Positions 157 through 42,295 of a DNA stretch of 42,296 bases are shown here, in pieces (position 1 is the first letter of the stretch; each line of letters opens with the position of its first letter). Under the pieces are notes generated by a model, which had not been told where the DNA came from, did no database searches, and was given only the letters and a program-made list of their open reading frames with translations. The translations under genes and the position numbers were made by a program. Source of the stretch: Streptomyces sp. NBC_01142 (GTDB lineage: Bacteria > Actinomycetota > Actinomycetes > Streptomycetales > Streptomycetaceae); contig NZ_JAPEOR010000010.1 in assembly GCF_026341125.1 (NCBI RefSeq), forward strand, positions 1-42,296, in the 5' to 3' direction.

Positions 157-263
157 TGTCGGGACGCACAAAAGATTGCAGTGGGCGTGTCTCTGACCTG
201 GGCGCTGAAATCATTTGTGCGGTGACTTGAGTCACACCCGACGCACGAATGATTTCAGTGCGC
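157..263 (+). repeat. Left end of the Tn7-like transposon with TnsB-type sites
   Basis: The end starts 5'-TGTCGGG at 157, matching the first seven bases of the right end read inward. Three copies of a roughly 21-bp motif follow: 166-186 (GCACAAAAGATTGCAGTGGG), 202-220 in inverted orientation (GCGCTGAAATCATTTGTGC) and 243-263 (GCACGAATGATTTCAGTGCG). The second and third copies face each other around the palindrome GTGACTTGAGTCAC (222-235). Repeated transposase sites at both ends plus TGT/ACA termini are typical of Tn7/Mu-type elements. The five bases before the end are CTTGA, a candidate target duplication. At the right end only one flanking base is visible (C), which agrees with it. Confidence 0.75.
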
Positions 264-411
264 TACACGCCCTCTGGGCGCAACCCGCGCCGGGGCCACT
301 CTCCGTAGTCCTACGCTGAGTGGCCGCTGGGCTGTCGTCACAAGGGGTCCCGGTAGCTCCCGCCGGAAGAGCAACGCTAGGGAGTGGTCCGCAGGTCAGG
401 GCGCGGGTTCC

Positions 412-705
412 ATCGCGGCCATCTGCTCGTTGTGCTCGCGGAGTATCCGCATGGCCGGTCGCGGGCGGCAGGTCCTGACCCTTCTTCGCGCCCTTGGTGA
501 TGACGAGCCGGGCGGCGATGTCGCGCAGACTCATCTCCTGCTCACGCAGGTGGAGGCCACAGAGAGCATGTGGTCTTCGGTAAGGCCCGCGCCCCCGATG
601 GTCTTGCCGCGCTTGCGAGCAGGTGGCCTTCCAGGGCGCGGTCGCGGACGGGTACGCAGGCCATTGCTTCCGCATGGAAGTCGCCGTGGCACCACGCTTG
701 CCTGG
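412..705 (-). pseudogene. Remnant of a serine recombinase/resolvase C-terminal region
   Basis: Read leftward, three frames in succession give pieces of one recognisable protein tail: HAEAMACVPVRDRALEGH, then RKRGKTIGGAGLTEDH, then EMSLRDIAARLVITKGAKKG, ending in ILREHNEQMA. The SLRDIAARLVITKGAKKG segment is the helix-turn-helix tail common in actinobacterial recombinase-family proteins. The catalytic N-terminal domain is absent, and at least two or three frameshifts separate the pieces, so the gene is dead. It sits just inside the transposon's left end and is probably debris of an earlier mobile element. The family assignment is from recall of the tail motif only. Confidence 0.6.
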
Positions 706-874
706 CGGCCACGAGAGGCCTCCGGGGCTGAGCGACCCACCCGTACGTGGGACATCCTTGTTCGAATTTGGGCCGCTAGCATTCCATCCACGCCGGGCCA
801 TGAAATTGCATCACGGGATTTCATGGGGCTTTCACCTGTGCAGTCTCGTGGCCGCGAGGAGGAAGGTAGAAAAA

Positions 875-1147
875 ATGGGATTATCGAACAGAGAGGGTGC
901 CTCTTCGATGCAGAACTTCACGAACGGTATGGCCGCTGACCTCATCCCGGGGCAATGGGTCAAGAGCCGCATGTCCGAAGCGAACGGCATGTGCATCGAG
1001 CTCGCCGAGCTCCCCCAGGGCCGCATCGCGATCCGTAACTCGACCGATCCCGCCGGGGCAGCGCTGATCGTCTCCAGCGCGGAGATGGAAGCGTTCATCG
1101 ATGGCGCCAAGAAGGGCGAGTTCGACGCCCTCTGCACCCTCAACTAG
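875..1147 (+). CDS. DUF397 family protein (90 aa)
   Basis: The small protein has the DUF397 pattern: W-x-K-S segment (QWVKSRMSEANGMCIELAEL), then IAIRNSTDPAGAALIVSSAEM and a short acidic tail with FIDGAKKGEFD. DUF397 proteins accompany XRE/DUF5753 regulators in Streptomyces (WhiJ-like pairs) and modulate development and antibiotic production. The start at 875 is chosen because a strong GAGGAGGAAGG lies about 8 bases upstream; 908 is an alternative ATG. The third codon is TTA (881-883), which suggests bldA-dependent translation. The partner regulator begins 83 bases downstream on the same strand. The function in this element is inferred from family only. Confidence 0.85.
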   Translation: MGLSNREGASSMQNFTNGMAADLIPGQWVKSRMSEANGMCIELAELPQGRIAIRNSTDPAGAALIVSSAEMEAFIDGAKKGEFDALCTLN

Positions 1148-4476: not shown

Positions 4477-4479
4477 CTA

Positions 4480-5412: not shown

Positions 5413-5415
5413 TAG

Positions 5416-6813: not shown

Positions 6814-6836
6814 CTAGGGCCTGTATCTGGTTGTGA

Positions 6837-7810: not shown

Positions 7811-7882
7811 GCACGACGATCTACCAGATCGCGGCACAGGACGCAGGCGTCCCCACAGATTGATCACAACCAGATACAGGCC

Positions 7883-9073
7883 CTAGCTGGCTTCGGCTTG
7901 CCCGTCTTCTTCGTCGGGGTTCTGGGTGTCGCCAGGAGGTGGCGGGGTGGGGTCGGTGTGACCCCAGTCGGTCTCGTAGGTGCTCTGGGCGTGCTCGTTG
8001 ATCGTGATGCTGGCCAGGAGGTTCCGGTCGATGCGCTCGGCTCCGGTCAGGACCGCGTCGGCTGCCGCTTCGCGGATGAGTTCCGCGAGAGAGCTGATGT
8101 TGCCTCCGGTGCGGCGGTACAGGTACTCCCACTGGCCGACGAGGGTGCCGGGCCGGTGTTTGTACAGGACGAGGGCGTCTTCCATCGCGGTGATGACGGA
8201 GACCCAGTCGGCCTTCTCGTCCCTGGTCCCGATGCGGTAGGGGGTCATGTGGAGCAGGGTGTTGCGGCCAGCGGTCTGGGTGACGCGCGCGTCGCCGGTG
8301 CCTTCGAGGAAGAGGCCCGAGTACTTCAGGTCGACACCGGTGTAGATAAAGGTGGCGGCGGTGTGGTTTGCGATGAACTTCAGGTGGTCGTTGACGACCT
8401 TCCCCTCCTTGAGGGAGAGGTCCATGAAGTGCGCGTCGTCGATGATCACGAGCTCGACGCCCGTGCGGCGCATGTTGTCCAGGACGAGGCGGGTGATGTC
8501 GCTCTTGGTGGCGCCGGACCGGTAGGGCTGGGCGAGGTACTGCGCCAGTGCGACCGACAGGTCCTTCGGGGTGGCCTGGGAGGGGATGTTGATGTAGACG
8601 ACGGGCGTGTAGTCGATCAGCCGCCCGTCGACGATGTACCGCTTCTCGAAGCGTTCGGGGTGGTTGCGCCGCAGTTCGTGCTCGAAGTCGTACGCGAACG
8701 TCTTGACCAAGGTGGATTTGCCGAGGGTGGCGGGACCGTCGAGGACGATGCTGCGCCGTGCCCCGGCGGGCTGGAAGGCGTTGGTCATCATCCGGCGGCG
8801 GATCTGGTGGTGGATGGTCTTCATCTGGCTGGTGCGGACGATGACCAGGGCACTGTGGTGGGCGAAGCGGGCCATGTTGTGCCGGTGCCGTTCCTCGGCG
8901 TCAAGCTGCTCGTAGTCCGCGAGGGGCAGCAGGACCGGCTGCAGGGGGAGGATGTAGTCGAGGTATTCGCGCCATTCCTCCTTGGTGCGCGGCTCGGACA
9001 GGCCGGGGTGCCTGAAGTCGCCCGGCCCGTACGGCTCTTCGGGCAGGTCGTCGGAGGGGAAGGGGGTGGGCAC
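7883..9073 (-). CDS. tnsC: TnsC/TniB-like AAA+ transposition regulator
   Basis: A 396-aa AAA+ ATPase. Walker A is GPATLGKSTLVKTF (about residues 111-124). Walker B is ELVIIDDAHFMD (about 210-221), followed by LKFIANHTAATFIYTGVDL as a sensor-type segment. It also has an RRTGGNISSLAELI segment near the C-terminus, as in the TniB/TnsC families. In Tn7-like elements this ATPase links the target selector (TniQ/TnsD) to the TnsAB transposase. The GTG start lies 5 bases after the tnsB stop, as the last gene of tniQ1-tnsA-tnsB-tnsC. Its TAG stop is within the CTAG used by three IS elements; the insertions leave the coding sequence whole. Confidence 0.9.
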   Translation of the reverse strand: MPTPFPSDDLPEEPYGPGDFRHPGLSEPRTKEEWREYLDYILPLQPVLLPLADYEQLDAEERHRHNMARFAHHSALVIVRTSQMKTIHHQIRRRMMTNAFQPAGARRSIVLDGPATLGKSTLVKTFAYDFEHELRRNHPERFEKRYIVDGRLIDYTPVVYINIPSQATPKDLSVALAQYLAQPYRSGATKSDITRLVLDNMRRTGVELVIIDDAHFMDLSLKEGKVVNDHLKFIANHTAATFIYTGVDLKYSGLFLEGTGDARVTQTAGRNTLLHMTPYRIGTRDEKADWVSVITAMEDALVLYKHRPGTLVGQWEYLYRRTGGNISSLAELIREAAADAVLTGAERIDRNLLASITINEHAQSTYETDWGHTDPTPPPPGDTQNPDEEDGQAEAS

Positions 9074-9078
9074 TGCGG

Positions 9079-11214
9079 TCAGCCTTCCTGACTGGTGTGG
9101 GGGTTCCAGACCTCGGCGGGCTGGACGGCGAACGGGTCGAAGTCGTCCTCGCCGGGCAAGTCGGGGACGGCGTGGAGCGCGGGGACGGTCGGCTCGACGA
9201 CTTCCGGCACCGGCGGCGGGACGGTGGCGGGGACCGCGGGGGTGGAGCGTGCTTCGTCCTGGGCCTGGGCTTCACCGCGGTGCCGGTCGCGGGTGTGACG
9301 CGTGCGGTCGGTCTTGGTCCACATCTCGGGGGCGTCGGTGCGGTTCTGCAGGTCCCACAGGGCCTTGGCGATCTGCTCCTGGAAGTCCTTGTCCTTCGGG
9401 TCGCCGCCGCGCTGTTCCACCAGACGCCTGGCCTCGCGCAGGGTGATGTCGGTGAAGGGCTGCAGGTCGCTGAGCGCCTTGGTCCAGCGCAGCGTGTACC
9501 AGGTGTCGTTGCGGGGGTTGTGGAAGTAGGTGTGCAGCAGGTTGCGGGGGTCGTAGCGGATGGGCCAGCGTCCGTTGTCGTAGGGGGACTTGGCACGGCG
9601 GAACTTGTAGAGGACGTCCTCGTTGTAGACCAGGTAGTCGAGCTCGACGCCGTAGGAGTTGATAGCGCGGCCGCCATCCGCGATGGGCAGCAGTTCGTAG
9701 TACATCTTGGGGTCGCGGGGGCAGTCGACGTAGCCGGCCGCTCCGAGCGCCATGGCGTACGCCTCGTTGGGCGAGACGTTCAGGTCGGGAAAGCCCTGCA
9801 GGGTCAGGCCTCGGTGGTGCTGGTTCTGGTAGACCGCGATGACGTACTCGGCGAAGAACTCGGCGATCTCGTCCAGGGTCCAGCGGGCCTGTTCTTCGAC
9901 GTGCTTGCCGCGGTGGGCGACGTTGAAGCCCTTGTAACCGGCGATGTGCATGGAGAACTGTTCCCGGATTGTCCCGAACAGGCGTTCCACGTGGGGTTTG
10001 TCGGTGGGCTTCAGCTTGCGGGCGTCCTGCAGGTCGATCCTCCATTTGCGGCAGGCGCGCTTGACGACGTCGGACTTGTAGGGCTTGCCGTGGTCGTAGA
10101 GCAGGGTCTCGGGGTAGACGACGGGCCTCGCTGCGGCTTCGGCGAGGCGTTCGTCGACGCTGAGGTGACGCTCGAAGGGGACGCGCAGCATCTGGTAGCG
10201 CAGGGCGTCGGCCCACTCGGGGCGCATCGGCTCGGGCGTCATGACGTCCGCCAGCAGCAGGCCGATGTCGATGGCCTTGGTGCCCAGCGGGGTGAGGCGC
10301 CAGGCGAGGATGGAGCGGGTGGTGACGTCGATGGCGACGGTGAGTTCGACGTTGTAGGTGTCGTTCATCGCGGGGTCGTAGGCCAGGACGTCGAGCGGGG
10401 TGGTGTCGAGCATGACGACCTGGCCGGGCCGGTGGGCGATGACGTTGCCGAAGGTGCGGTCGGGCTGGTTGGCGTCCGAGATCCGCTGGTAGGCGGGGTC
10501 GGAGGGACTACGGTGGAGGAGGAGTTTGACCACCCGGCGGAAGGTGTCCGGCTTGGGCAGTTCGACGGTCCCGGGGCCGTAGTCCGCGTCGAGCCGGTTC
10601 TGGGTGCGGCGCCGGAAGCGGGTGGAGACGCTGGAGGAACTGTCGCGTTGTTCGGCGGCGGCCTGCTCGCGGATCGCGGTGATCACCCGCTCGTCGATGT
10701 TGCGCAGCGGGTTCTTCAACCGGGCTTTGCGGCCGTCGACCAGCGCCCACAGGCCCTTCTCTTCCCACTCCTCGAGCAGCTGCCAGATGCGGCGCTCGGT
10801 CAGTCCAAGCTCGGCCGCCTTGGTCACGACTCGCTCGGAGAGCAGGAGGTCGGGGTGGTACTGGGGGCGGGGCTCGCCGGGCTCCTTGTCGAAGGAGGAG
10901 CCGGAGCGGAAGCCGGTGGTGGCCTCGTACAGGTGGGCTTCGAGTTCCAGGGCGTCGTCGCGGGCCTGCTTGTTCGTCAGCGATGCCAGAACGCCGCCGG
11001 GGTCCAGGCCCGCGGTGCCGTTGTCGGAGGTGGCCGGCGGCGCGGTCAGGGTGCGGAAGGTGGGGTCGGTCAGCAGGATGCTGAGCATGATCGTCTGGTG
11101 GCGTCCGGAGATCGAGCGCAGGCGGACCAGGGCGCCGGTGATGCCGGTGACCTGGTGCTGTTCTTCCTCGAAATCGATCCAGTCTTCGACGGCGATGCGG
11201 TGGCGCTGGTCCAT
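9079..11214 (-). CDS. tnsB: TnsB-like DDE transposase (Mu/rve family)
   Basis: A 711-aa protein from ATG 11214 (MDQRHRIAVEDWIDFEEEQ), whose ATG overlaps the tnsA stop as TGATG. An N-terminal DNA-binding region has helix-turn-helix-like segments (LGLTERRIWQLLEEWEEKGL). The rve-type catalytic core has the first Asp in VVMLDTTPLDVLAYDP, a second Asp in LLYDHGKPYKSDVVKRA and the Glu in KPTDKPHVERLFGTIREQF. A Mu-type C-terminal region follows. TnsB binds the end repeats and joins the 3' ends to target DNA. The repeats at 166-263 and 42216-42283 are the likely binding sites. The C-terminal tail (PAVPATVPPPVPEVVEP and after) is Pro-rich and may contact TnsC. Confidence 0.93.
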   Translation of the reverse strand: MDQRHRIAVEDWIDFEEEQHQVTGITGALVRLRSISGRHQTIMLSILLTDPTFRTLTAPPATSDNGTAGLDPGGVLASLTNKQARDDALELEAHLYEATTGFRSGSSFDKEPGEPRPQYHPDLLLSERVVTKAAELGLTERRIWQLLEEWEEKGLWALVDGRKARLKNPLRNIDERVITAIREQAAAEQRDSSSSVSTRFRRRTQNRLDADYGPGTVELPKPDTFRRVVKLLLHRSPSDPAYQRISDANQPDRTFGNVIAHRPGQVVMLDTTPLDVLAYDPAMNDTYNVELTVAIDVTTRSILAWRLTPLGTKAIDIGLLLADVMTPEPMRPEWADALRYQMLRVPFERHLSVDERLAEAAARPVVYPETLLYDHGKPYKSDVVKRACRKWRIDLQDARKLKPTDKPHVERLFGTIREQFSMHIAGYKGFNVAHRGKHVEEQARWTLDEIAEFFAEYVIAVYQNQHHRGLTLQGFPDLNVSPNEAYAMALGAAGYVDCPRDPKMYYELLPIADGGRAINSYGVELDYLVYNEDVLYKFRRAKSPYDNGRWPIRYDPRNLLHTYFHNPRNDTWYTLRWTKALSDLQPFTDITLREARRLVEQRGGDPKDKDFQEQIAKALWDLQNRTDAPEMWTKTDRTRHTRDRHRGEAQAQDEARSTPAVPATVPPPVPEVVEPTVPALHAVPDLPGEDDFDPFAVQPAEVWNPHTSQEG

Positions 11215-24937: not shown

Positions 24938-24953
24938 ACTGCACTGTACGTAC

Positions 24954-29606: not shown

Positions 29607-29616
29607 AGGACACGTG

Positions 29617-31089: not shown

Positions 31090-32144
31090 CGGCATCCTTC
31101 CTGGCCGCTCCGCCCCGAAGGGCGCAGCCAACATCGGTCGTCAAAGCCCCGGGTGTCGAGGTTTGTCGTCATGAACAGACGTATCGGACAAGGCTCCATG
31201 GGGCCGACGGCGCGCGGGCGCCTCTCGTCATACGTCCGGTACGGGGACGGTCCTGCCGGTTCTCTGTGTCTGCTGCCGGCTCGCGAGCCGACAGAACCTG
31301 GCGTGTCGAGCTGCATACGGACCGCCCTCACAGAATGCGGGTGGTTCGAGATTAAAGAAATCCATCGACTCGAGCCGTTCGATGCCCGGACACAGGCTTT
31401 GGCCTAAGCCTCAGGGCGCAGAGAACCCAACTTCGCAGGTGTGCCCGCGCAGTCGGGCTGGCGGAATCCGGGATGCTGGAATCCGCATGAAACTGACGGT
31501 GGTCGTGGGCGACTTCGAAGTCATCTCAACAACATCAATGAGTCCATGTCAATAAGGACTTGAGGTGCCTGGAATGGAATGTGTGAGCTATGCCACTGCA
31601 CGAGACCGCGACACGCCGACGGGGCTGTTTTGGGCACCGCGATTTGTCACAACATGTCCGATCGTAGAACCTGAACGAGGTGTCCGGATATTGAGACAGG
31701 GGTTCCGGTAAACGATCTTGTGCTCGTAACGTCAAGGTCAGCGCAGGCAACCGGTGTTGATTGACCGTCACATCGAGGGAGGGGCACTACTGAGGTTCAC
31801 GGTTCCTTGCGGCCGCCCACTGCCTGGCCGGGTAGGCCTGGATTACATGGGAACTCCGCTCTGAACTCCTCCACAGAATCCTCCGTGAAGGGCGCGCCGT
31901 CGCGTCGCTCTCTGATGAGTCCGTGCGCTATGTGTTGCCATGCCGCACCGGACGCGGCGGAATACAGGCGTCGCCCTGGAGTACCGGTGCGCACTGCGTC
32001 GATGTGAAGTCCGCGGATTCCATAACGGTTTCGCGGAATCAGGGGTCAATCTCCTGCTCTACTCCTGGTTCTTGTGCTGTCGGCGCTCAATTCGCGACGG
32101 TAGACCAAGTCCATGTCCACACTTCCGAGCTCCGGAGGAAACAT
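31090..32144. promoter_or_regulatory. 1-kb divergent control region of the biosynthetic genes
   Basis: This stretch separates the leftward PP-loop gene from the rightward aldolase gene and is lower in GC than its surroundings. No convincing gene is present; short frames, such as a 65-codon minus-strand frame at 31797-31994, lack ribosome sites. It must hold the promoters of both arms. Since no pathway regulator gene is seen among the biosynthetic genes, its length is notable; it may carry a long leader or binding sites for a host regulator. A clear GGAGGA precedes the aldolase ATG at 32145. Confidence 0.5.
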
Positions 32145-33173
32145 ATGTCTGCAGTACATACCCCGCCGTTCCAGCCGCGGAAGGCGGAAATTCTTGACGC
32201 GACACTGCGTGATGGTTCCTACGCAGTCGACTTCCAGCTCGACGAGAAGTTCGTCGGTGAGCTCCTCGGCCGGCTCAATGAGACGCCGATCGGCAAGGTC
32301 GAGATCGGACACGGCCTCGGCTTCGAGGCGGAGCGGTCCGGCATCAAGGCCTGCAACATCGATCTCGCGCGCTGGTGCGCGATCGCGCGGGAGGAGCTGA
32401 CGGCCACCTCGTGGGGCATGTTCGCGCAGCCAGAGTTCAGCCGGCTCTCCACGCTCCGCGAACTTTGTGACGAGGGAATGTCGTTCGTCCGCATCGGCAT
32501 GGAGCCCGAGCGGGTCCCGGACCACCTCGAGTACATCGAGCGCGCCACCGAGATCTGTGGCGAGGTCTACCTCAACCTGATGAAGACGAGCGGCACGCCC
32601 GCTGAGGAGATTCCCGGCCTGCTGAGTGGCGTCACTCCCGCCATCGCCGGTGTGTACGTGGTGGACTCGTACGGCTCCATGCTTCCCAGCGACGTCCACC
32701 GCTACGTGGCCGTCGCGAAGGAGAGCTTCTCCGTCATCGGATTCCACGGCCATGACAACCTGGGCATGGCAAACGCGAACAGCATCGCCGCGATCGAGGC
32801 GGGCGCCGCGATCGTCGACGGAACGCTCGACGGAATAGGCCGCGGCGCCGGCAACGCGGAGACCGAGTCGCTGGCCGGGATCATCAGCACTCTCGGTGAA
32901 GATCGGTTCGACTACAAGCAGCTGGCCAGGCTCGCGCACTTCTGCCGGACCAGCCTGGACCTCCTGCCCGAAGACCGGAACATGCAGGTGCTCGGCGGCG
33001 TGATCGGCATGCACTCCGGATTCTTCCCGCTCATCGAGCAGTTGTGCTCCGAGCTCATCGTCGACCCGGCTTCCTTGATGGAGGCCGCCGTCGAGCTGGC
33101 CCCGCGGAGCGCGGGCAAGAACGACATCCGTGCCGCGGCTCAGCGAATTTCCCAGCGCACGGCCGTGGCCTGA
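32145..33173 (+). CDS. HMGL/DmpG-like aldolase (4-hydroxy-2-oxoacid aldolase type)
   Basis: 342 aa, the length of DmpG/MhpE-type enzymes. Metal and catalytic motifs are present: EILDATLRDGSYAVDFQLD (D-x-T-L-R-D-G), KVEIGHGLGFE, VIGFHGHDNLGMANANSIAA (H-x-H) and DGTLDGIGRGAGNAETESLA. A C-terminal helical domain (LGGVIGMHSGFFPLIEQL) is present. Such enzymes join or split pyruvate and an aldehyde through 4-hydroxy-2-oxo acids. No aldehyde dehydrogenase partner is encoded nearby, so here it may act in the synthetic direction. The next gene is an FAH-fold enzyme, giving an MhpE/MhpD-like pair. Confidence 0.85.
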   Translation: MSAVHTPPFQPRKAEILDATLRDGSYAVDFQLDEKFVGELLGRLNETPIGKVEIGHGLGFEAERSGIKACNIDLARWCAIAREELTATSWGMFAQPEFSRLSTLRELCDEGMSFVRIGMEPERVPDHLEYIERATEICGEVYLNLMKTSGTPAEEIPGLLSGVTPAIAGVYVVDSYGSMLPSDVHRYVAVAKESFSVIGFHGHDNLGMANANSIAAIEAGAAIVDGTLDGIGRGAGNAETESLAGIISTLGEDRFDYKQLARLAHFCRTSLDLLPEDRNMQVLGGVIGMHSGFFPLIEQLCSELIVDPASLMEAAVELAPRSAGKNDIRAAAQRISQRTAVA

Positions 33174-33206
33174 CCCCTTCAAACCACGCGAATAGGGAGC
33201 AACAAA

Positions 33207-34046
33207 GTGCGACTGGCACGGTTCAACACCGAAGACGGGCACCAGATTCTGGCGAGCCACCGCGGCGGCTGGATTTCACTGTCCGGCATCGAAGGCTACA
33301 AAGCCCCGCACCGCCTGGCCGACCTGCTGGACGCGTCCCGCAGGAGCGAGCTCGCCGGGCTGCTCGAGTCCCGGCCGGACGCCGAGCCGGCCGACGTCCG
33401 CCTGGAGGAGGCCGCGACCATCATCGACGCCGGCGACATCTGGGGGGCCGGCCTCAACTACAAGGGGCACTCCCAGGACCTGAGCGCACAGCAGCCCTCG
33501 TCCGGGCCCGGCTCGTATCTGCGGCCGGCCAACTGCCTCATCGGAAACGGCGGGGTGATCGAGCTTCCGTCGCAGAGCAAGCGGGTGACCGCGGAAGCGG
33601 AACTGGGCCTCGTCGTCGGGACGGAATGCAAGAACGTGCGGCGCGACGAGTGGAGGTCGGTCATCGCGGGTGTCACGGCCGTCCTCGACATGACTGCGGA
33701 AGACGTCATCCGAGAGAACCCCCGCTACATTCCGTGGGCCAAGGGATTCGACACGTTCTGCAGCGTGGGCCCGCAGCTGGTGACCCTCGACGAGTTCGAA
33801 GACGCGGACCTTCAGTCGATCCGGGTCTCGACCGTGCGCAACGGTGAGGTCGTCGCCTCCGCACAGGTCTCCGACATGAAGTACGACCTCGGCTACCTGG
33901 TCGAGTACTTCACGGCCGGCCGCACCCTCGTGCCCGGAACCGTCATCTGCACGGGAACTCCGGGAGCCGCAGTGATCAACTCCGGCGATTCCATCACCTC
34001 TGTCGTAGAGGGCATCGGCACCCTCTCCCACTCCGTGAAGGGCTGA
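33207..34046 (+). CDS. FAH-family hydrolase/hydratase/decarboxylase
   Basis: 279 aa from GTG 33207 with AGGGAG upstream. The FAH fold markers are DIWGAGLNYKGHSQDLS, SYLRPANCLIGNGGVIELP, TAEAELGLVVGTECKNV (metal ligands E-x-E), WAKGFDTFCSVGPQLVT and LVPGTVICTGTPGAAV. Members hydrolyse C-C bonds, hydrate or dehydrate 2-oxo-4-enoates, or decarboxylate 2-oxo diacids. Beside a DmpG-like aldolase it could dehydrate a 4-hydroxy-2-oxo acid to a 2-oxo-4-enoate. That step is inference; the exact reaction cannot be told from sequence. Confidence 0.88.
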   Translation: MRLARFNTEDGHQILASHRGGWISLSGIEGYKAPHRLADLLDASRRSELAGLLESRPDAEPADVRLEEAATIIDAGDIWGAGLNYKGHSQDLSAQQPSSGPGSYLRPANCLIGNGGVIELPSQSKRVTAEAELGLVVGTECKNVRRDEWRSVIAGVTAVLDMTAEDVIRENPRYIPWAKGFDTFCSVGPQLVTLDEFEDADLQSIRVSTVRNGEVVASAQVSDMKYDLGYLVEYFTAGRTLVPGTVICTGTPGAAVINSGDSITSVVEGIGTLSHSVKG

Positions 34047-34050
34047 AGGC

Positions 34051-35790
34051 GTGCCCGTACAGCAGATATCAGTGGCAGACGCGATCGAGCACACCATCCA
34101 GGAGCGTCCCGAATGCACTGCCCTGGAGACCGCGGACGGGGTGCTCAGCTACCGGGAATTCGGCGAGCAAGTGCGGGAGTTCATCGGGCAGCTCGAAGCA
34201 CTGACCGCGCCCGGTGAGTTCATCGGGATCGAGGCCATACGTACCTCGGGCTCCATTGTCGCCATGGTGGGCGCATTGCGGGCCGGACGCCCGTTCGTGT
34301 TCATCGACCCCCGTGACAGCGGGTCCTCGAACAGGACCAAGGTGTCCTCGCTCGGTATCAACAGGGTCGCCAAGAGCCCTGCCTTGTCGCACCCGCCAGA
34401 GCTCGTCGACACGCCGGCCGAGTGGCGCGGGGACGCGGGAGAGCGGCAGCTGCGGGCACCTGCGGAGCTTGCGCCGTACCAGGGCAGTGTGGGTTACGCG
34501 ATCCACACCTCGGGATCGACGGGGGAGCCCAAGTGTGTGCTGGTGCGCACCGGACCGCTGGCCCGGATGGTCCAGGACCATGTGCGCTCTCTGGAGTTGG
34601 GCACAAAGAGCCGTACGCTGCAGTTCGCCCGACTGACCTTCGACGGATGCATCACGGAGATCCTGTGGACCCTGACCGCAGGCGCGTGCCTGGTGGTTCT
34701 CGGTGAGGAGCAGCTCAGCCCAGGAACGGTGCTCCAGGCCACTCTGGAGAAGTTCCGCATCACTCATCTGAAGACGACTCCGTTCGCGCTGACGGCGACC
34801 GAGCCGTCGAGCGCGATGAGCCTGGAGCACGTCATCAACGGCGGCGGAGCCTGCCGCCAGGCGGTGGTACAGAAGTGGTCGTCGGAGGCGGCGCTCCACA
34901 ACGCGTACGGGACCACGGAGACCACCGTCTGCAACTTCCTCAGCGACCCGCTGGACCCGGACGACTGCACCGAGTCCGTGCCGCTCGGCGCGGTGGTGGG
35001 CGATTGCAGTTACGACATCCTCCCCCTGCCGACGGCGGGCGGGGACGGGCCCACCGGATCGCAAGTCACCCGTGGTGAGCTGGTCATCACCGGCGAGAGC
35101 GTCGCGATCGGCTATCTGACCGCGCAGGGCCTGCGGCCCTTCACCGACGGCGCGGCGAGCCGGGTCTACCGGACCGGCGACATCGTCGAACGCCGCGGCG
35201 GGCAGGTCTTCTTCGTCGAACGGCTGGACCGGCAGCTGAAGATCCGGGGCTACCGGCTCGATCCCGGCGAGATCGAGAGCGCGGCATGCCGGCTCGACGG
35301 AGTCGTGGAGGCGGTGGTGACCGCAGAGTCGCATGAGGGCGCGGACGACTACGCCGCTGAGGCTCTGGTCTGCTACTACCAGGGCACCGTCACCCCCCGG
35401 GCGCTGCGTGCGCACCTGGAGACGGTCCTCGACTCCTACAAGGTCCCCTCGGTGATCCAGCAGATCGAGTCGCTTCCCTACACGCGTAACGGCAAGGTCG
35501 ATCGCGACGCTCTCAAGGCCAGCCGTCATTCCGCGCCGGAAGTTGGTGAGACCGGCGGCAAAACCGTCCCGCCGGAGGAGCAGATCCTCGATCTGGTGCG
35601 CCACCTCACCGGTGTGAACGACGCCGCCCTCAACGACAACTTCTATGACATCGGTGGCGATTCGGCCTCCACGGTGATCCTCGTCAACAAGCTGAAGGAA
35701 CTCGGCTGGATGGATGCCGGTGTCCGGGACGTACTCCGGGCGGAGAACTTGAAGGTCCTTGCCGACGAACTTCGTGACCGGGGTGTGTGA
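34051..35790 (+). CDS. NRPS-type adenylation-PCP didomain protein
   Basis: 579 aa from GTG 34051, four bases after the FAH stop. Adenylation motifs: YAIHTSGSTGEPKCVLVRTG (A3), RLTFDGCITEILWTL (A4), NAYGTTETTVCNF (A5), YRTGDIVERRGG (A7), ERLDRQLKIRGYRLDPGEIE (A8) and TRNGKVDRDALK (A10 Lys). A C-terminal carrier domain has NFYDIGGDSASTVILVNKLK with the phosphopantetheine Ser. There is no condensation or thioesterase domain. It loads one amino or keto acid onto its own carrier. The residue after the A4 Asp is Gly (FDG), so the binding pocket differs from common amino acid codes; the substrate is unknown. Confidence 0.94.
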   Translation: MPVQQISVADAIEHTIQERPECTALETADGVLSYREFGEQVREFIGQLEALTAPGEFIGIEAIRTSGSIVAMVGALRAGRPFVFIDPRDSGSSNRTKVSSLGINRVAKSPALSHPPELVDTPAEWRGDAGERQLRAPAELAPYQGSVGYAIHTSGSTGEPKCVLVRTGPLARMVQDHVRSLELGTKSRTLQFARLTFDGCITEILWTLTAGACLVVLGEEQLSPGTVLQATLEKFRITHLKTTPFALTATEPSSAMSLEHVINGGGACRQAVVQKWSSEAALHNAYGTTETTVCNFLSDPLDPDDCTESVPLGAVVGDCSYDILPLPTAGGDGPTGSQVTRGELVITGESVAIGYLTAQGLRPFTDGAASRVYRTGDIVERRGGQVFFVERLDRQLKIRGYRLDPGEIESAACRLDGVVEAVVTAESHEGADDYAAEALVCYYQGTVTPRALRAHLETVLDSYKVPSVIQQIESLPYTRNGKVDRDALKASRHSAPEVGETGGKTVPPEEQILDLVRHLTGVNDAALNDNFYDIGGDSASTVILVNKLKELGWMDAGVRDVLRAENLKVLADELRDRGV

Positions 35791-35795
35791 AAGCG

Positions 35796-37568
35796 ATGTG
35801 TGGCGTATGCGGGACTTTTTCCCCGAACGGTGGGGTTGATCGCAGCATTGCCGCTGCCATGCACTCCCGGCTCATCCACCGTGGGCCCGACGAGACCTAC
35901 TCGCTGAACACCGAGACGATCTCCGCGAAGCTCGGCCGCCTCGGCTTCACCGGCCTGACCGACGGGTGGCAGCCGGCCGAGGACCGCAGCGGCCGCTACG
36001 TGGCCATGACGAACGGCGAAGTGTTCAACGCTCGGGATCTGCGCGCCAGAGTGGGCGCCGACCGGCAGAACAACGGCGTCGACGTATCCGTCATCCCAGA
36101 GCTAGTCGCACAGTACGGGATCGAGGGACTCCGACTGGTGGACGGACAGTTCGCCACGGTCGTTCTCGACCGCGCCGAGAATGCGATGTTCCTGGCCAGG
36201 GACCGGTTCGGCATCTGCCCGATGTACTACACCGCTACGGGTCCGGACGTGCACTTCGCCTCGGAGATCAAGCCGCTGGTTCAGTGCGTCAGCCGGTCCT
36301 GGAAGGTGGATATGGGGGCGGTCGACCAGTATTTCTCGATGGGCAACATCGTCGCGCCGCGCACTCTCGTGAAAGAGGTGCAGGCCGTTCCCCCCGGCTG
36401 CGCCGTCCGGTTCGACGCCAGTGGCCGGGAGACCCTGCGTTACTGGCGCTACGGCGACTTCGCACCGGCCGCGGAACCCGTATCCGGCGAGGCGCTGCGC
36501 GAGGGACTGCAGCGGTCGGTCCGGGACCGCCTGCATGCCGACGTGGAGATCGGCGCCTATCTGAGCGGAGGATTCGACTCCACCGCGATTCTGACGGAAG
36601 CGGTGGCTCTCACTGCCCGGCCTGTCCGGACGTTCTCGGTAGTCTTCGACGATCCGGGCCTCGACGAGGGACGTTTCCAGCGGGAAGTGGCGCAGGCAGT
36701 CGGAAGCAAACACGAGCAGATCCTGTGCCGGCAGACCGACATCGCCTCGAAGTTCGAGCAGATGGTCCGGCACTGCTGCTATCCGCAGCGTGAGACGTAC
36801 AACGTGGCCGCCATGATGCTGGCCGATAGCGTGCGCTTCTCCGGAATCAAGGGAGTGGTGTCCGGCGAAGGCGCGGACGAGCTGTTCTTCGGCTATGACT
36901 CCTACGCCTTCGACAGTGCGACCCGCTCGAGCCGGACTTCCCGCGCGGAGAACGAGCGGGCGTGGGGCAGGGCGGACTTCAGCTGGGAGGTCGACTGGCG
37001 CAAGGTGGGCCAGCGGCGGGACGACTACCTCGCCCCTGTGGCGCAAGAAGCGCTGGAAGGCGACGAGTTCTGGCGTACGAGGCTCATCCCGTTCTCCGAG
37101 GACGAGGTGAAGTCGCTTTCACCGATGCAGTTGCGCTCCATCGCCGACGTGTACGTCCAGCTGTCGGGCCACCTGCTCGGCGATCACGGCGACTCGATGC
37201 TCATGGGAAATTCCATTGAGGGGCGCTACCCGTTCCTCGGCAATGCGGTCGTCTCACTCGCCCTGCAAGTCGAAGACAGCGCGAAGGTGGTCGACTTCGA
37301 GGGGAAGGCCTGCCTGAAATCGGCGTACGAGGGAATCGTCCCGGACTCGGTTCTCCGCCGTGGGAAGCACGGATTCACCGCATACGATCTGCGCTCGGTC
37401 ACGGATGCGCGGACCTGGGACGAGTGGCGCGGCCTCGTCGAGGCCAGTGGCATCTTCACTCCCGGCTGTCTCGGCACACGCGCCGGTCAGGGCGCGGAGA
37501 AGTGGGACTTCAGGCTCAGCGCGATCAGCATCGCCATGGTCATGGACGAGCTCGGCCTTGGACTCTGA
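35796..37568 (+). CDS. AsnB-like glutamine-dependent amidotransferase
   Basis: 590 aa from ATG 35796 (MCGVCGTFSPNGG); Cys2 would be the N-terminal nucleophile after Met removal, so this start is preferred to the GTG nine bases earlier. The glutaminase domain has LIHRGPDETYS, TNGEVFNARDL and ARDRFGICPMYY. The synthetase domain has GAYLSGGFDSTAI (PP-loop), VVSGEGADELFFGYDSY and SIEGRYPFLG. The intact Cys argues for real amide formation from glutamine rather than beta-lactam closure, whose synthetases lose it. It lies between the A-PCP and thioesterase genes, so it may amidate a carrier-bound acid. Confidence 0.93.
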   Translation: MCGVCGTFSPNGGVDRSIAAAMHSRLIHRGPDETYSLNTETISAKLGRLGFTGLTDGWQPAEDRSGRYVAMTNGEVFNARDLRARVGADRQNNGVDVSVIPELVAQYGIEGLRLVDGQFATVVLDRAENAMFLARDRFGICPMYYTATGPDVHFASEIKPLVQCVSRSWKVDMGAVDQYFSMGNIVAPRTLVKEVQAVPPGCAVRFDASGRETLRYWRYGDFAPAAEPVSGEALREGLQRSVRDRLHADVEIGAYLSGGFDSTAILTEAVALTARPVRTFSVVFDDPGLDEGRFQREVAQAVGSKHEQILCRQTDIASKFEQMVRHCCYPQRETYNVAAMMLADSVRFSGIKGVVSGEGADELFFGYDSYAFDSATRSSRTSRAENERAWGRADFSWEVDWRKVGQRRDDYLAPVAQEALEGDEFWRTRLIPFSEDEVKSLSPMQLRSIADVYVQLSGHLLGDHGDSMLMGNSIEGRYPFLGNAVVSLALQVEDSAKVVDFEGKACLKSAYEGIVPDSVLRRGKHGFTAYDLRSVTDARTWDEWRGLVEASGIFTPGCLGTRAGQGAEKWDFRLSAISIAMVMDELGLGL

Positions 37569-37619
37569 CTCCCGTGGCCCCGATACGCGCGCACTCGTGT
37601 CTGAGGATTGGAGAATTCA

Positions 37620-38309
37620 GTGAGTCCCGAGAGCCCAGGCATCATCGTCTTCCCGGGTGCCGGTTCGTTCGGCAGTGAGCTCCGTCCACTGCTGCGTGAG
37701 CTGGAACCCTCCGCGTGGCTCGCCCGGTATCCAGGCCGTTTCGGTAGGGATTTCGGCAAGGCGGCGGCATCGTTCCAGAAGGTCGTGGAGTCGTGCGTCA
37801 CCCAGGTGGGGCGGCTTCAGCCGTATCGCCCGGTTCTCGTCGGGCACAGCTTCGGCGCCTACGTCGCCTATGCCACGGCAAGGGAACTGGAGGACCGCGG
37901 GACGGAGGTCTCCGCACTGGTGGTCGCCGGAGCCACCGCGCCGGCCCTGCTCACGGTGCCAGAGCAGGCGTGTCGGAGCCGGTCGGACACTGCGGCCTAC
38001 CTGGACGGTATCGACCCTGGCCTGCTGCCGGACGAGTCCGATGAGTGGCGGGACATCGTTGTGGACACCGCGGGGGAGGACCTCCGGGTACTCAGGGAAT
38101 TCACCGCCTCGGCCCATCCGGAAGTGCGGTGTCCGGTCTTCGCCGTGCGTGGTGAAGAGGACCCGCTCACGTCCGCAGGCGGAATCGGCGCATGGGCCGG
38201 TGTCACTGCCAAGGGGTGTATCCACCGGGAATTCCCAGGCGGTCACTCGGCCCTGCTGAACTCGCCCGAATTCGCCGCATGGCTGCGTGAGATACGTGTA
38301 CGCGGCTGA
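37620..38309 (+). CDS. Type II thioesterase
   Basis: 229 aa from GTG 37620 with GGAGA five bases upstream; a TTG at 37608 is less likely. Alpha/beta-hydrolase markers: IIVFPGAGSFGSEL, RPVLVGHSFGAYVAYATARE (G-H-S-F-G), CPVFAVRGEEDPLTSAGG (Asp) and FPGGHSALL (His). Type II thioesterases of this size remove wrong groups from carrier proteins in NRPS/PKS pathways; some release the product. With no integrated thioesterase domain in the adenylation protein, release is a real possibility here. Confidence 0.93.
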   Translation: MSPESPGIIVFPGAGSFGSELRPLLRELEPSAWLARYPGRFGRDFGKAAASFQKVVESCVTQVGRLQPYRPVLVGHSFGAYVAYATARELEDRGTEVSALVVAGATAPALLTVPEQACRSRSDTAAYLDGIDPGLLPDESDEWRDIVVDTAGEDLRVLREFTASAHPEVRCPVFAVRGEEDPLTSAGGIGAWAGVTAKGCIHREFPGGHSALLNSPEFAAWLREIRVRG

Positions 38310-38346
38310 GCAAACGCCGTCCCTGGCGGGAAAGGAGATCTGTCCT

Positions 38347-39840
38347 GTGAACAGCCGTCCCCTCACCGCGGGCGGGCACCTGGTGGTTATCGGCGGTGGT
38401 GCCGCCGCGACGGCGGTGCTGCACCAACTGACGGAGCACGCCGGGTTCCGGCCCGGATCGGTGACGGTGGTGGACCCGCGGCCGGCCGGGTTCGGCGTGG
38501 CCTTCGGCACCACCGACCCAAAGCTGCGCTGCAACACCTCGGTCGATGTCACCTCGCTGTACCGCGCTGACCGCTCTGACCTCCAGCGCTACCTGGCGGC
38601 ACGGGGCTGGCCGGTGGGCCGCGCCGACTTCGTCCCGCGTGCGCTGGTCGGGCAGTACTGCCGGGAACGGTTCGGGCAGCTGAGCCGGGAGCTTCAGGCG
38701 CGGGGGGCCCAGGTGCGCCAGGTGACCACGCGGGCCCGTACGGTACTCCCGGCAGAACGCGCGGGCGAGGGATACCGGGTCACCCTGGACGACGGCAGCA
38801 CGCTGGAGGCCACCGATGTGGTGGTGGCGGCCGGTGGCGACCAGCCGCACCTGCCCGAGCTGCTGCGCGCGTATGCGGACCATCCGGATCTACTTGCCGG
38901 CCCCTACCCCACGGACCGGCTCCGGGCACTGCCCACCGACGCCAGAGTGCTGGTCGTCGGCAGCAAGCTGTCCGCGGTGGATGCCGCTCTGGTGCTGTGC
39001 GGGGCTGACCGGCAGGTCACCTTGTGCTCGCCTTCCGGCGAACTGCCAGCCGTCCGCAACCGGCTGTGCCGTACGGCCCGGCCGACCGGGCTGTTGGCCG
39101 ACTTGCGCGAACTGAACCCCGGCACCCCGGATTTCGACCGGACGCTCACCCGGGTCCTGGCGCGCGCCGTCCGGAGCGCCAGGGCCGGCTGGGGGCACCC
39201 GGCGGCCGCGCTGCGTCGGCAATTCGGCACCGAACCCAAGGCGCTGGAGCGGCTCACCACAGAACTGCGGCAGACCGAGGCGGGCGACAATGCCTGGCAA
39301 GACGTGATCGCCGAACTCATCGAGGCGGTGAACGACTGGACCGAGGGCTGGCCCTCCGCCGAGCGAGACCGTCTGCTCACGCGCTTCCGCCCGCTGATCG
39401 CCCGCCACATCTCGGCCATCCCGGTGTCCAGCGCCCGCGCCCTGGCCGGGCACGGCCTGGCCGGACGGCTCGCCGTGCGCCGCGGCACCCCTGCGGCGCT
39501 CACACCGGACCCGGACGGCGGCTGGCAGGTGCGCTGGACGGCCGCCGGCCCGGCCGAGCACCACACTCATGTGCTGTCGGCCTCCGGATACCTCAGGCCT
39601 GCCGTGTGCACGCACGGCCCCGCGCTGCTCGCCCTCGGTCCCGCCGCCTGCTCCCCGCACTGCGCTCCACCGCTCACCGGCCCGGACCTACGGCTGCTGC
39701 GTCCCGGCGGAGCCGACCCGGAACGCATCTGGATGGTCGGAGCCATGGGGGCCGCCCGCACCGCCATCGTCAACTACCTGTGGACCGCGGCTGGCCAGGC
39801 GGGCACCGTCGCCCAGGCCCTCGCCGTCTCCACCCGTTGA
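38347..39840 (+). CDS. FAD/NAD(P)-binding protein of the FAD_NAD(P)-bd_9 type
   Basis: 497 aa from GTG 38347, with AAAGGAG upstream. An N-terminal Rossmann motif is HLVVIGGGAAATAVLHQLTE, followed by CNTSVDVTSLYRADRSDLQR and PRALVGQYCRERFGQLSREL, typical of the family. A second dinucleotide motif is ARVLVVGSKLSAVDAALVLC. C-terminal motifs are SASGYLRPAV and WMVGAMGAARTAIVNYLW. Such proteins occur in many secondary clusters, but few have known reactions; some may act on amines or carrier-bound groups. It begins a run of three higher-GC genes (with the ATP-grasp and EamA genes) that may have been added as a block. Confidence 0.8.
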   Translation: MNSRPLTAGGHLVVIGGGAAATAVLHQLTEHAGFRPGSVTVVDPRPAGFGVAFGTTDPKLRCNTSVDVTSLYRADRSDLQRYLAARGWPVGRADFVPRALVGQYCRERFGQLSRELQARGAQVRQVTTRARTVLPAERAGEGYRVTLDDGSTLEATDVVVAAGGDQPHLPELLRAYADHPDLLAGPYPTDRLRALPTDARVLVVGSKLSAVDAALVLCGADRQVTLCSPSGELPAVRNRLCRTARPTGLLADLRELNPGTPDFDRTLTRVLARAVRSARAGWGHPAAALRRQFGTEPKALERLTTELRQTEAGDNAWQDVIAELIEAVNDWTEGWPSAERDRLLTRFRPLIARHISAIPVSSARALAGHGLAGRLAVRRGTPAALTPDPDGGWQVRWTAAGPAEHHTHVLSASGYLRPAVCTHGPALLALGPAACSPHCAPPLTGPDLRLLRPGGADPERIWMVGAMGAARTAIVNYLWTAAGQAGTVAQALAVSTR

Positions 39841-39863
39841 ATCCTGTCGAAAGGACGCCGCCC

Positions 39864-41159
39864 ATGTACGTGCTCGTCGATCCCGTCTCCACCGGCCGTG
39901 AGCTGGCCGCCGCCTTCCGCGAGGAGGGTGCGGACTGCCTGCATCTCTACGAGGCCGCCCTGCACGCCGAGCACGCGAGCGACCCGGCCCCGCACACCGG
40001 CCTGCTGACTGCCACCGGACCGCAAGCCGTTGCCGAGGCCGCAGAGCTGCTGCGCGACAAGCAGATCACCGCGGTGATCGCGGCCAGCGAACGCGGGGTG
40101 CTGCTGGCCGACGCCCTCGCTCACGCACTCGGACTGCCGCACCACGACGTCCAGCTGGCCGCCGCCCGCCGTGACAAGGAACTCATGGTGCGCGCCCTCG
40201 AGGCCGAGAGCGTGCCGGCCGCCCGCACCCGGGCAATCAGCTCGCTCACGGAGCTCGACGAGACCCTCGACGCCTGGGGCGCTGCCCCCGGCACCCCGCT
40301 GGTGGTCAAGCCGCGCAACAGCGCGGGCAGCGACGGCTGCACCGTGGTCGCCAGCCGCGCCGAAGCCCGCGCAGCGGCCGAGGCCACCCTGCTCCAGCCC
40401 AATCTGATGGGCGAGACCAATACCGACGTGCTGCTTCAGGAGTACCTGGAGGGGACCCAGTACATCGTCAACACCGTCAGCATGGACGGCCGCCACCTGC
40501 TCTCGGAGGTGTACCGGGAGCGCATCGACACCATCGCCGGGGCGCCGGTCCTGCGCCACATCGTCTCCCGACCCCAACTCGACGACCGCGAGCAGGACCT
40601 CGTCGCGTACGTGCTGCGCTGTCTGGACGCCCTCGGCATCCGGGAAGGCGCCGCGCACACCGAGGTGATGCTCACCACGGCCGGACCACGCCTGGTGGAG
40701 GTCAACTCCCGGGTGATGGGGCCGTCCCTGGCACCCGACCCGTACCACGCCGCCTTCGGCTACAGCCACCAGCACCTGGTCGCCGAGCGTTTTCTGCGCC
40801 CGGACGACTTCGCCCAGCGCTTCGAGCTGCCCTACGGGGGAGGCCGTACCCTCGCCAAGATCTTCCTGCGCACCTTCCGGGAGGGGGTACTGGCCGCCGT
40901 GGACGGAGCGCGCATCCTGCGCCGACTGCCCGGCTTCCACTCCATCGACCGGCTGCCCGCGACCGGCGTGCCGATCCCGGACCCGACGCTGACCACCGGC
41001 GCCTCCGGCATCGCCTACCTCGTCCACGATGACGAGGAACTTCTTTACAGCTCCCTGGGGTTCATCCACCACCTGGAGGACGACGGCGCCTTCTACCGCA
41101 TGGCCGACCCCGGCCAACGGCACGACGCCAGCGAGCCGCTGCAGCGGACGGCGGCCTGA
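39864..41159 (+). CDS. ATP-grasp carboxylate-amine ligase
   Basis: 431 aa from ATG 39864, preceded by GAAAGGA. ATP-grasp features: a pre-ATP-grasp N-terminal region, PLVVKPRNSAGSDGCTVV (phosphate-binding loop), VLLQEYLEGTQYIVNTVS (adenine-binding hinge), HTEVMLTTAGPRLVEVNSRV (metal ligands E and N). The family joins a carboxylate to an amine through an acyl phosphate, as in dipeptide ligases. It is the best candidate for making the main amide bond in the absence of a condensation domain. Its stop overlaps the EamA start (TGATG). Confidence 0.92.
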   Translation: MYVLVDPVSTGRELAAAFREEGADCLHLYEAALHAEHASDPAPHTGLLTATGPQAVAEAAELLRDKQITAVIAASERGVLLADALAHALGLPHHDVQLAAARRDKELMVRALEAESVPAARTRAISSLTELDETLDAWGAAPGTPLVVKPRNSAGSDGCTVVASRAEARAAAEATLLQPNLMGETNTDVLLQEYLEGTQYIVNTVSMDGRHLLSEVYRERIDTIAGAPVLRHIVSRPQLDDREQDLVAYVLRCLDALGIREGAAHTEVMLTTAGPRLVEVNSRVMGPSLAPDPYHAAFGYSHQHLVAERFLRPDDFAQRFELPYGGGRTLAKIFLRTFREGVLAAVDGARILRRLPGFHSIDRLPATGVPIPDPTLTTGASGIAYLVHDDEELLYSSLGFIHHLEDDGAFYRMADPGQRHDASEPLQRTAA

Positions 41160-42130
41160 TGGCAGGGGCACCCGCACTCATCGCCCTCTCGGTGCTGCTT
41201 CAGGCCGCCGCTGAGGCGTTCCTGTCCGGCCGCATCAGTAGCGGCGACAGCCTGCGCTTCTCTCTGGTGGCCTTCTTCGGCTGCACGCTGCTGTTCCTGG
41301 CTGTGAGCCGGATACGCCGCACACCGGCTCGCCGGGCGGCAGAGCCGCATGCCGGGCCGGGGAAACTGCGCCTGTTCGCGGCCCTCAACGTAGCCAGCGC
41401 GGTGACGTTCCTGGGCCTGTACCTGGCGCTGGTGTGGGTGCCAGCTGCGTTCGCCGCCAGCCTGATGGCGGGGGTCGGCCCGACCGCCGCGACGGTGCTC
41501 GCCACCCTGTCAGGCCGACGCCACACGGCGGCGAGCTGGCTGCGCTCCGCAGGTCTGTTCGCCGCCTCCGTGATCACCGCTGCGGCCGTCCAGCCCTCCC
41601 TCCTGGACACCTCCACTTGGCAGTCCGGGCCAGCCGCCAGCGCGGTCGGCGCCGGGCTCGCGGTACTGGCCGGGGTGGGCGCCGCGGCCATCGCCCACCT
41701 GTCCCTGCAGCTCGGTGCACACGGAATCGCACCAGCCGTCGTGATGGCTCACCGCTTTCACCTGACCTACCTGCTCGCCGCCCTCGCCCTGACCAGCGAC
41801 GGCCTGACCCAACCCCCTCGCCTCAGCTGGACGGTGACCGCGCTGATCGCCCTCGTCGGCGTGGTCCTGCCTCTGTACATCCTGCAGATCGGTGTCCAAC
41901 GGACTCCGGCCGCCGTCACCATGGCTCTCCTCGCCACCCAACCCGGCCTCGCTTACCTCGTGCAAGGCGTACTCGGCTACCCACTTACCTGGACCGGCAC
42001 CATTGCCGTCCTCTTCCTGATCGTGGCGGCCATCGTCGTCGCCCGAACCGAACACCGCGCCAGCTCCAGCGGCCCGCCCGCGGGAAAGGACACGGGTGGG
42101 GTCAAGGGAAAGGTGGGCAGCAGCCCCTAA
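41159..42130 (+). CDS. EamA/DMT-family exporter, second copy
   Basis: 323 aa with about ten hydrophobic segments: LIALSVLLQAAAEAFLSG, LFAALNVASAVTFLGLYLAL, AGLAVLAGVGAAAIAHLSLQ, WTVTALIALVGVVLPLYILQ, IAVLFLIVAAIVVARTEHR. A hydrophilic tail follows. It is coupled to the ATP-grasp gene and is the last cargo gene before the transposon's right end. It probably exports the product or gives self-protection. The sequence is clearly different from the first EamA protein, so it is not a recent duplicate. Confidence 0.9.
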   Translation: MAGAPALIALSVLLQAAAEAFLSGRISSGDSLRFSLVAFFGCTLLFLAVSRIRRTPARRAAEPHAGPGKLRLFAALNVASAVTFLGLYLALVWVPAAFAASLMAGVGPTAATVLATLSGRRHTAASWLRSAGLFAASVITAAAVQPSLLDTSTWQSGPAASAVGAGLAVLAGVGAAAIAHLSLQLGAHGIAPAVVMAHRFHLTYLLAALALTSDGLTQPPRLSWTVTALIALVGVVLPLYILQIGVQRTPAAVTMALLATQPGLAYLVQGVLGYPLTWTGTIAVLFLIVAAIVVARTEHRASSSGPPAGKDTGGVKGKVGSSP

Positions 42131-42202
42131 CCACGCTGCACCGTACGACAGCTTGCGCCCGTCACGCACCCGAGCTGCGGCAAGGGCGCACCAGTCACCG
42201 TC
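42131..42202. other. Short spacer before the right end, with a weak hairpin
   Basis: No gene. TGCGCCC (42154-42160) could pair with GGGCGCA (42184-42190) to form a long-loop hairpin that might end the rightward operon. The support is positional only. Confidence 0.3.
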
Positions 42203-42295
42203 ACCCTTGGTGGTCGCACTGAAATCTTTCGTGCGCTACTGAAATCTCTACTGAAATGAATCTTGCGCTACTGAAATCTTCAGAGCCACCCGACA
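42203..42295 (-). repeat. Right end of the Tn7-like transposon with TnsB-type sites
   Basis: Read inward from 42295 the end is 5'-TGTCGGGTGGC, sharing its first seven bases with the left end. Four motif copies follow: GCGCTACTGAAATCTTCAG (42265-42283), CTACTGAAATGAATCTTGCG (from 42248), GCGCTACTGAAATCT (42233-42247) and GCACTGAAATCTTTCGTGCG (from 42216). They are more tightly packed than the left-end copies, the same asymmetry seen between the two ends of Tn7. Only one base of flanking DNA (C, 42296) is visible. Confidence 0.78.

Follow-up and report, generated by a model that had tools for sequence, protein, structure and literature searches.

The window analysed here, the whole of contig C10 (42,296 bp) from the genome of Streptomyces sp. 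NBC_01142 (10.1 Mb in 15 contigs), holds a Tn7-like transposon, E1 (window 157-42295, 42,139 bp), that is very probably complete and recently active, with a home site in the pilus ATPase gene tadA, a second copy in another Tn7-like element (E2) and a captured 13-gene biosynthetic cluster that has moved as cargo. E1 has defined ends and target duplications, two insertion sites, copies that are identical wherever both are assembled, a conserved and oriented target, and the cluster inside its ends. Natural-product clusters are scattered across the actinomycetes, implying horizontal movement, and to our knowledge vehicles for such clusters have seldom been described with precise ends, target duplications and unoccupied sites.

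A preliminary description of this DNA had noted matched termini and an end repeat of about 21 bp, and both are present. TGTCGGG is read inward at both termini, from 157 on the plus strand and from 42295 on the minus strand, and the 21-bp inward repeat agrees between the left and right ends at 20 of 21 positions (E 4.9e-6). The ends have the form TGT...ACA and contain several TnsB-site repeats, arranged differently on the two sides:

157..263, plus strand: E1 left end, with three TnsB-site-like repeats, aligned with the left ends of the relatives G066, G381, G169 and G276
42193..42295, minus strand: E1 right end, with about four closely spaced TnsB-site-like repeats, read from the alignment with G066, G381 and G169

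A degenerate repeat pattern has seven matches in the window, a number reached in none of 100 shuffles, and six of the seven lie within 110 bp of the left terminus or 85 bp of the right terminus of E1; this statistic is biased towards the ends because the pattern was written from them. The match at 34060, considered as an internal end, is treated as chance.

E1 has two insertions in the genome, each with its own matched 5-bp duplication. For copy B, which is the window's copy, the predicted duplication CTTGA is found on both sides, the left flank on contig C3 ending in ...CTACCTTGA and the right flank on C11 beginning CTTGACC. Copy A is flanked by CCGCA, with its left flank on C1 and its right flank on C2. 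Together with the homologous ends of relatives, these data uphold the boundaries at 157 and 42295. The E1 sequence present on other contigs is 100% identical to the window (7.7 kb on C1, 10.5 kb on C2, 15.2 kb on C3 and 10.2 kb on C11), which argues for recent movement, and the asparagine-synthase gene from the right part of the cluster is found on C2 and C11 as well as on C10.

When the flanks of copy A are joined, they give an open 385-codon gene for a tadA/cpaF-type pilus ATPase with its Walker A motif present, which copy A splits at TadA residue 285/286, between ...NTGHEGG and CGTVHAN; its neighbours look like cpaE, tadB and tadC. A TadA search in 37 same-genus genomes (this one included) returned 33 uninterrupted orthologues, with the site itself read in ten of the 33, so that the empty sites expected in relatives are indeed available. 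The four exceptions are the genome studied here (E1), G011 with an unrelated 10-kb insertion, G028 with tadA in two overlapping pieces, and G008 with a paralogue only; in G030 tadA is intact, its in-frame TGA being the natural stop. The G011 insertion (G011:C3:159378-169361) was considered as another E1 and rejected, as it encodes a serine-recombinase-type Zn-ribbon protein and is without the E1 core. As this unrelated element occupies the tadA codon that E1 splits, the site serves mobile elements of at least two kinds. The tadA data also bear on whether there are two insertions at all. The ends of E1 coincide with contig ends, which is what an unresolved repeat would give, and the second insertion could be an assembly artefact around a single E1; this is extremely improbable, as the two left flanks can be matched with the two right flanks through exact 5-bp duplications, and one of these pairs restores the frame of a gene that is intact in nearly all of the genomes searched.

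A TnsB search in 392 same-genus genomes placed the closest relatives of E1 in G276 (93% identity), G066 (90%), G169 (85%) and G381 (83%), and a second draw of 394 genomes from the family gave no further TnsB relative above 72%. Other elements share the E1 ends: those in G066, G381 and G169 carry both, and that in G276 the left end. All four have in common with E1 homologous ends, tnsABC, tniQ1, a helix-turn-helix (HTH) gene, tniQ3 and the tadA site. In all five elements with TnsB at least 83% identical (E1 and the four relatives, G276 with one side visible only), tadA is split at the same codon (285/286) and in the same orientation; the duplications read GCACC in G066 and GCCGC in G381. Targeting of tadA as a trait of the whole lineage is unsupported, as there is no split tadA in the fetched stretches of nine elements with TnsB at most 72% identical (G244, G350, G197, G013, G371, G526, G548, G561 and G572), some of them partial (20 of 30.9 kb for G548, 40 kb each for G013 and G371); G633, G323, G325 and relatives below 49% had too little flank and were left out of this comparison. 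The G561 element has CGCGG on both sides, and the G526 flanks show a 4-bp match. At 9.6 kb, the G526 element (C1:5079748-5089355) is a minimal relative; it has tnsABC and a homologue of tniQ1 and lies immediately upstream of an apparently HAD-type gene. Copy A and the four relatives bear out the earlier suggestion that E1 may be site-specific, although the window's own copy occupies a different site. The chromosomal home site of E1 would be the conserved tadA/cpaF motif NTGHEGG/CG, with TniQ3 as its likeliest selector.

The different site is in E2, whose left end opens the window:

1..156, plus strand: E2 left end (TGACCTGTCTCAACG...), with the same 156 bp at C3 and C9 and the CTTGA duplication at 152-156

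Window 1-156 is therefore neither E1 nor ordinary chromosome, and the proposal that the whole window lies within one element is right for 157-42295 but not for these first positions. E2, into which copy B is inserted, measures 6,408 bp with E1 not counted (5880-12135 of stretch L024 on C11, plus window 1-156) and encodes an AbiJ-domain protein and TnsABC proteins about 30% identical to those of E1; none of the four TniQ proteins of E1 finds a match in its C11 part. It is present at two places, with the duplications GCAAC (C3/C2, chromosome) and CCGGC (C9/C11), its left end being on C3 and C9 and its other end on C11 and C2. The end of C9 coincides with the E1 junction, from which the start of C2 is about 0.4 kb away. 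C9 has genes for a TrwC relaxase, a primase-polymerase, an HU-like protein, a pyridoxal-phosphate-dependent (PLP) decarboxylase and a major facilitator superfamily (MFS) protein, and an 8-kb query from it found 228 partially similar plasmid records (Streptomyces plasmids), with none covering 80%. Because of the relaxase, the primase-polymerase and this partial similarity, C9/C11 is likely to be a mobilizable plasmid, by which E1 might be transferred. By eye, the flanks of the E2 insertion site have no evident likeness to the tadA site, and a second targeting pathway may have placed another E1 copy into E2. The presence of E2 at two places does allow E1-in-E2 to have spread by E2 movement or recombination, and the copies could thus reflect homologous recombination or replicon rearrangement instead of transposition. 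As an explanation for the E1 copies this is very unlikely, because the tadA copy is bordered by a duplication of its own and not by E2 sequence, an arrangement that recombination does not produce; the argument may still hold for the chromosomal versus the plasmid-like E2.

Transposition of E1 would depend on the complete tnsA-tnsB-tnsC-tniQ set that had been reported for the window, and profile matches recover all four genes, with tnsC, tnsB, tnsA and tniQ1 on one strand and three more tniQ genes elsewhere in the element:

7883..9073, minus strand: tnsC, AAA+ ATPase (Pfam TniB 6.6e-14, AAA_22; solved TnsC chains 1.8e-5)
9079..11301, minus strand: tnsB, DDE transposase (solved Tn7-like TnsB chains 8.1e-7; Pfam rve 3.3e-4, under the curated cut-off)
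11214..11981, minus strand: tnsA, endonuclease (NCBIfam TnsA_like_Actin 190 bits, cut-off 110)
11978..13768, minus strand: tniQ1, 596 residues (Pfam TniQ 4.9e-19)
13839..14093, plus strand: small HTH regulator, kept in the four closest relatives
14100..14729, plus strand: tniQ2, short at 209 residues (Pfam TniQ 1.6e-22)
15094..16599, plus strand: tniQ3 (Pfam TniQ 1.7e-14; homology in most relatives begins near residue 124)
23789..24961, minus strand: tniQ4 (Pfam TniQ 5.1e-17, shorter form 3.4e-17; adjoins the right end in G066)

The likely start of tniQ4 is near 24960, the listed open reading frame (ORF) extending to 25207. TnsA scores 19.8 bits against the Pfam TnsA-like model, under its cut-off, and neither TnsA nor the tniQ1 protein has a PDB relative by sequence. 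D299, D403 and E439 of TnsB are among the acidic residues invariant in all seven aligned TnsBs and form a candidate catalytic triad. The Pfam matches of the 40 window ORFs scanned include no Cas family, no search aimed at cas genes or CRISPR having been made. E1 thus combines the hallmarks of a Tn7-like element, namely TnsA, TnsB, TnsC, TniQ, end repeats, a 5-bp duplication and an oriented conserved site, with the window's copy sitting elsewhere. Judging from their families, TnsA and TnsB would cut and join the E1 ends, TnsC would license the target and the TniQ proteins would pick it.

Which TniQ directs E1 to tadA can be approached by comparing the elements. The four TniQ proteins share 29-40% pairwise identity over their common domain. 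TniQ3 has orthologues (53-70% identity) in all four tadA-inserted relatives, with two in G169 (61 and 41%), and in the nine distant elements similarity to it is weak, not exceeding 33%, or 42% in fragments no longer than 81 residues, with none in G350; this distribution makes TniQ3 the best candidate for tadA recognition. E1 shares TniQ4 with G066 and G169, and tniQ2 with G276 and partly with G381. The elements of G169, G013 and G371 each show about four stretches that resemble TniQ.

The biosynthetic cargo of about 17 kb noted earlier lies inside the E1 ends as a 13-gene cluster at about 25.7-42.1 kb, between tniQ4 and the right end, with a phosphopantetheinyl transferase gene alongside:

24954..25781, minus strand: phosphopantetheinyl transferase (Pfam ACPS 3e-12)
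25759..27276, minus strand: leucyl-tRNA synthetase (LeuRS) editing-domain-like protein, about 505 residues (tRNA-synt_1_2 1.3e-17; LeuRS chains 1.4e-16 over residues 161-255)
27396..27644, minus strand: acyl carrier protein, read from the translation, kept in L110 and L111
27695..28468, minus strand: short-chain dehydrogenase (SDR)
28468..29454, minus strand: EamA-type transporter 1
29617..31134, minus strand: PP-loop-like protein, PqqD-family in database names (GGGKDS motif; homologues to 90%)
32145..33173, plus strand: HMGL-like aldolase/synthase
33207..34046, plus strand: fumarylacetoacetate-hydrolase-fold (FAA) enzyme
34051..35790, plus strand: nonribosomal peptide synthetase (NRPS) adenylation-peptidyl carrier protein (A/PCP)
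35787..37568, plus strand: asparagine-synthase-like amidotransferase (AsnB)
37608..38309, plus strand: thioesterase (TE)
38287..39840, plus strand: FAD/NAD(P)-binding oxidoreductase
39864..41159, plus strand: ATP-grasp ligase
41159..42130, plus strand: EamA-type transporter 2, the gene nearest the right end

The PP-loop-like label follows our reading of the GGGKDS motif, and the protein has no PDB relative. In G066 the interval from tniQ4 to the conserved right end has 31 bp in place of window 24954-42193 (17.2 kb). The cluster thus fills exactly this interval, and a location outside the transposon is rejected.

Streptomyces sp. WMMB 322 (locus L110) has this cluster too, with 12 of the 13 genes in matching order at 42-89% identity, and 11 of 13 genes are found in each of S. 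chumphonensis and S. barkulensis (L111 and L112). A search with the PP-loop protein gave 39 loci, examined over up to 21 kb apiece; 14 of them have the HMGL-FAA-A/PCP-AsnB core, including loci from Micromonospora, Nocardiopsis and Sphaerimonospora and, further off, Desulfoluna and Pseudoalteromonas, and the other 25 are without it; no tnsA, tnsB, tnsC or tniQ match is present in any of the 39. The phosphopantetheinyl transferase has no match at 1e-10 in L110-L123 or the rest of these loci. Nine of ten cluster-bearing genomes searched have no TnsB match at 1e-20, and the tenth has two distant fragments. Cluster genes are thus found in strains without the transposon, a result that points to capture and does not place the cluster outside E1. 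With the cluster lacking tns genes nearby in other actinomycetes, it exists independently of E1 and was most likely captured by it; E1 would have taken up the pre-existing 13 genes between tniQ4 and its right end and would move them as cargo. The fetched stretches of the four E1 relatives contain no cluster gene, except for one 33%-identical SDR in G169.

An HMGL-FAA-A/PCP-AsnB cassette (54-67% identity, with TE in most cases) is also present in G145, G169 and G213 (at two places), and part of it in G017 (on a short contig), which suggests a portable sub-pathway; in G169 part of a related cassette is on a different contig from its element. Location of the cluster on sequenced plasmids was set aside: for a 7.9-kb cluster query, 93 PLSDB records match somewhere, none covers 80% and the best-ranked covers 3%. 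We found no match for the cluster's product in the literature searched. The free-standing LeuRS editing-like protein has homologues in related clusters, and its gene is a possible self-resistance or trans-editing factor; speculatively, the editing domain suggests self-protection against an amino-acid-like product.

E1 also carries defence genes, which are relevant for its present state:

18486..19607, plus strand: Lamassu lmuA (PADLOC LmuA 6.9e-92)
19604..20071, plus strand: Lamassu lmuC (PADLOC LmuC 3.5e-47)
20064..23294, plus strand: Lamassu lmuB in two pieces, matching LmuB profile positions 3-271 and 275-577

All three genes are recognised, and the system is not intact, with lmuB interrupted by an IS4-family insertion sequence (IS) at 20890-22383, of which two further copies (99.7 and 100% identical) were found in the stretches examined. 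Lamassu genes are also carried by the G276 element; G066, G381 and G169 carry other cargo, some of it defence-like as judged from the translations. E1 further contains several transposase genes of the IS5-like, DDE_5 and DDE_Tnp_1 types at 4502-7867 and 17198-18493, including one (6837-7867) that is divided between two reading frames.

Several observations weigh against E1 as a recently active vehicle with a TniQ3-selected home site. Its mobility is read from sequence, and the further IS genes together with the broken lmuB are signs of decay. The middle of E1 (window 15380-31817), including the left-hand cluster genes, appears a single time in the assembly and is thus shown in one copy only. 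E1-in-E2 is seen from one side per replicon, the left junction on C3 and the right junction on C11, and the G169 duplication reads only 4 bp. The case for TniQ3 as selector is a co-occurrence correlation in five elements, with some of the comparison stretches partial. E1 could therefore be genuine with the cluster as passive, possibly decaying baggage of an element that is no longer mobile, the copies dating from one past burst. The near-identical copies of the IS4 element elsewhere in the genome, the other transposase genes and the short tniQ2 (209 residues) would fit such a history. Nevertheless, we regard it as unlikely, given that the overlapping E1 stretches are 100% identical, which argues for recent movement, and that the reading frames of tnsABC, tniQ1 and the cluster genes are open. 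A recently active E1 remains our preferred explanation, and we infer that it may still be active at present and that its cluster may be expressed.

More broadly, and tentatively, E1 could represent a lineage of actinobacterial Tn7-like elements equipped with several specialised TniQ proteins, one directing insertion into tadA and another into mobile elements on mobilizable plasmids, that shuttles whole clusters with built-in self-protection, the editing-like gene perhaps conferring self-resistance by trans-editing. With a cluster inside a bounded transposon, E1 provides a testable vehicle that has a conserved home site and a site in a mobile element also found in plasmid-like DNA, and it adds tadA/cpaF to the targets of Tn7-like elements. 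The division of labour among its four TniQ proteins is open to direct test, and could yield a site-specific tool for integrating large cargo in Streptomyces.

Natural-product cargo had been expected to be unusual for such an element, and this holds only in part. Tn6171/Tn6552, Tn7-family elements of Acinetobacter baumannii, carry fimsbactin siderophore genes (PMC8190619), and the Pbo cluster of Pseudomonas syringae has a Tn7-like transposon at its border (PMC8473136). The available text of a survey of 6,549 Tn7-like transposons by Benler et al. mentions siderophore and nonribosomal-peptide cargo, with few complete pathways (PMC8649781). Given Tn6171 and this survey, biosynthetic cargo on Tn7-family elements is already known. 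In the literature searched, which was mostly outside subscription papers and included the accessible portions of PMC8649781, PMC10293859, PMC12231136 and PMC12915292, we found no Streptomyces natural-product cluster carried by a Tn7-like element and no Tn7-like element that targets tadA/cpaF.

As far as the accessible parts of the respective reports go, E1 resembles Tn6171 in having tnsABC with a TniQ-family selector (TnsD in Tn6171), inverted ends with extra TnsB sites, a 5-bp duplication and cargo that includes a biosynthetic pathway; Tn6171, however, lies downstream of glmS and has tnsD/tnsE, whereas E1 lies inside tadA, has four tniQ genes and carries a different pathway in an actinomycete host (PMC8190619). 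The Pbo island of P. syringae pv. phaseolicola likewise has a biosynthetic cluster beside tnsA/tnsB/tnsC/tniQ, but its tnsC is listed as a pseudogene (PMC8473136). E1 and the comM-targeting Tn6022 both enter the gene of a conserved ATPase, each at a fixed motif; the site of Tn6022, which uses TnsF with TniQ, is the ComM Walker B region, and that of E1 is NTGHEGG/CG of tadA (PMC10293859). Tn7706 of Rhodococcus erythropolis is, like E1, actinobacterial and multicopy, with tnsA/tnsB/tniQ/tniB, on plasmids and chromosomal islands, but it measures 19.4 kb with 19 genes, and the accessible text mentions no biosynthetic cluster as cargo (PMC12915292). Faure et al. counted 2,905 Tn7-like loci with a single tniQ and 1,048 with tandem pairs, as against four tniQ genes in E1 (PMC10293859). 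Set beside these systems, the notable features of E1 are its tadA target, its four TniQ proteins, its two classes of target and the whole cluster that it carries.

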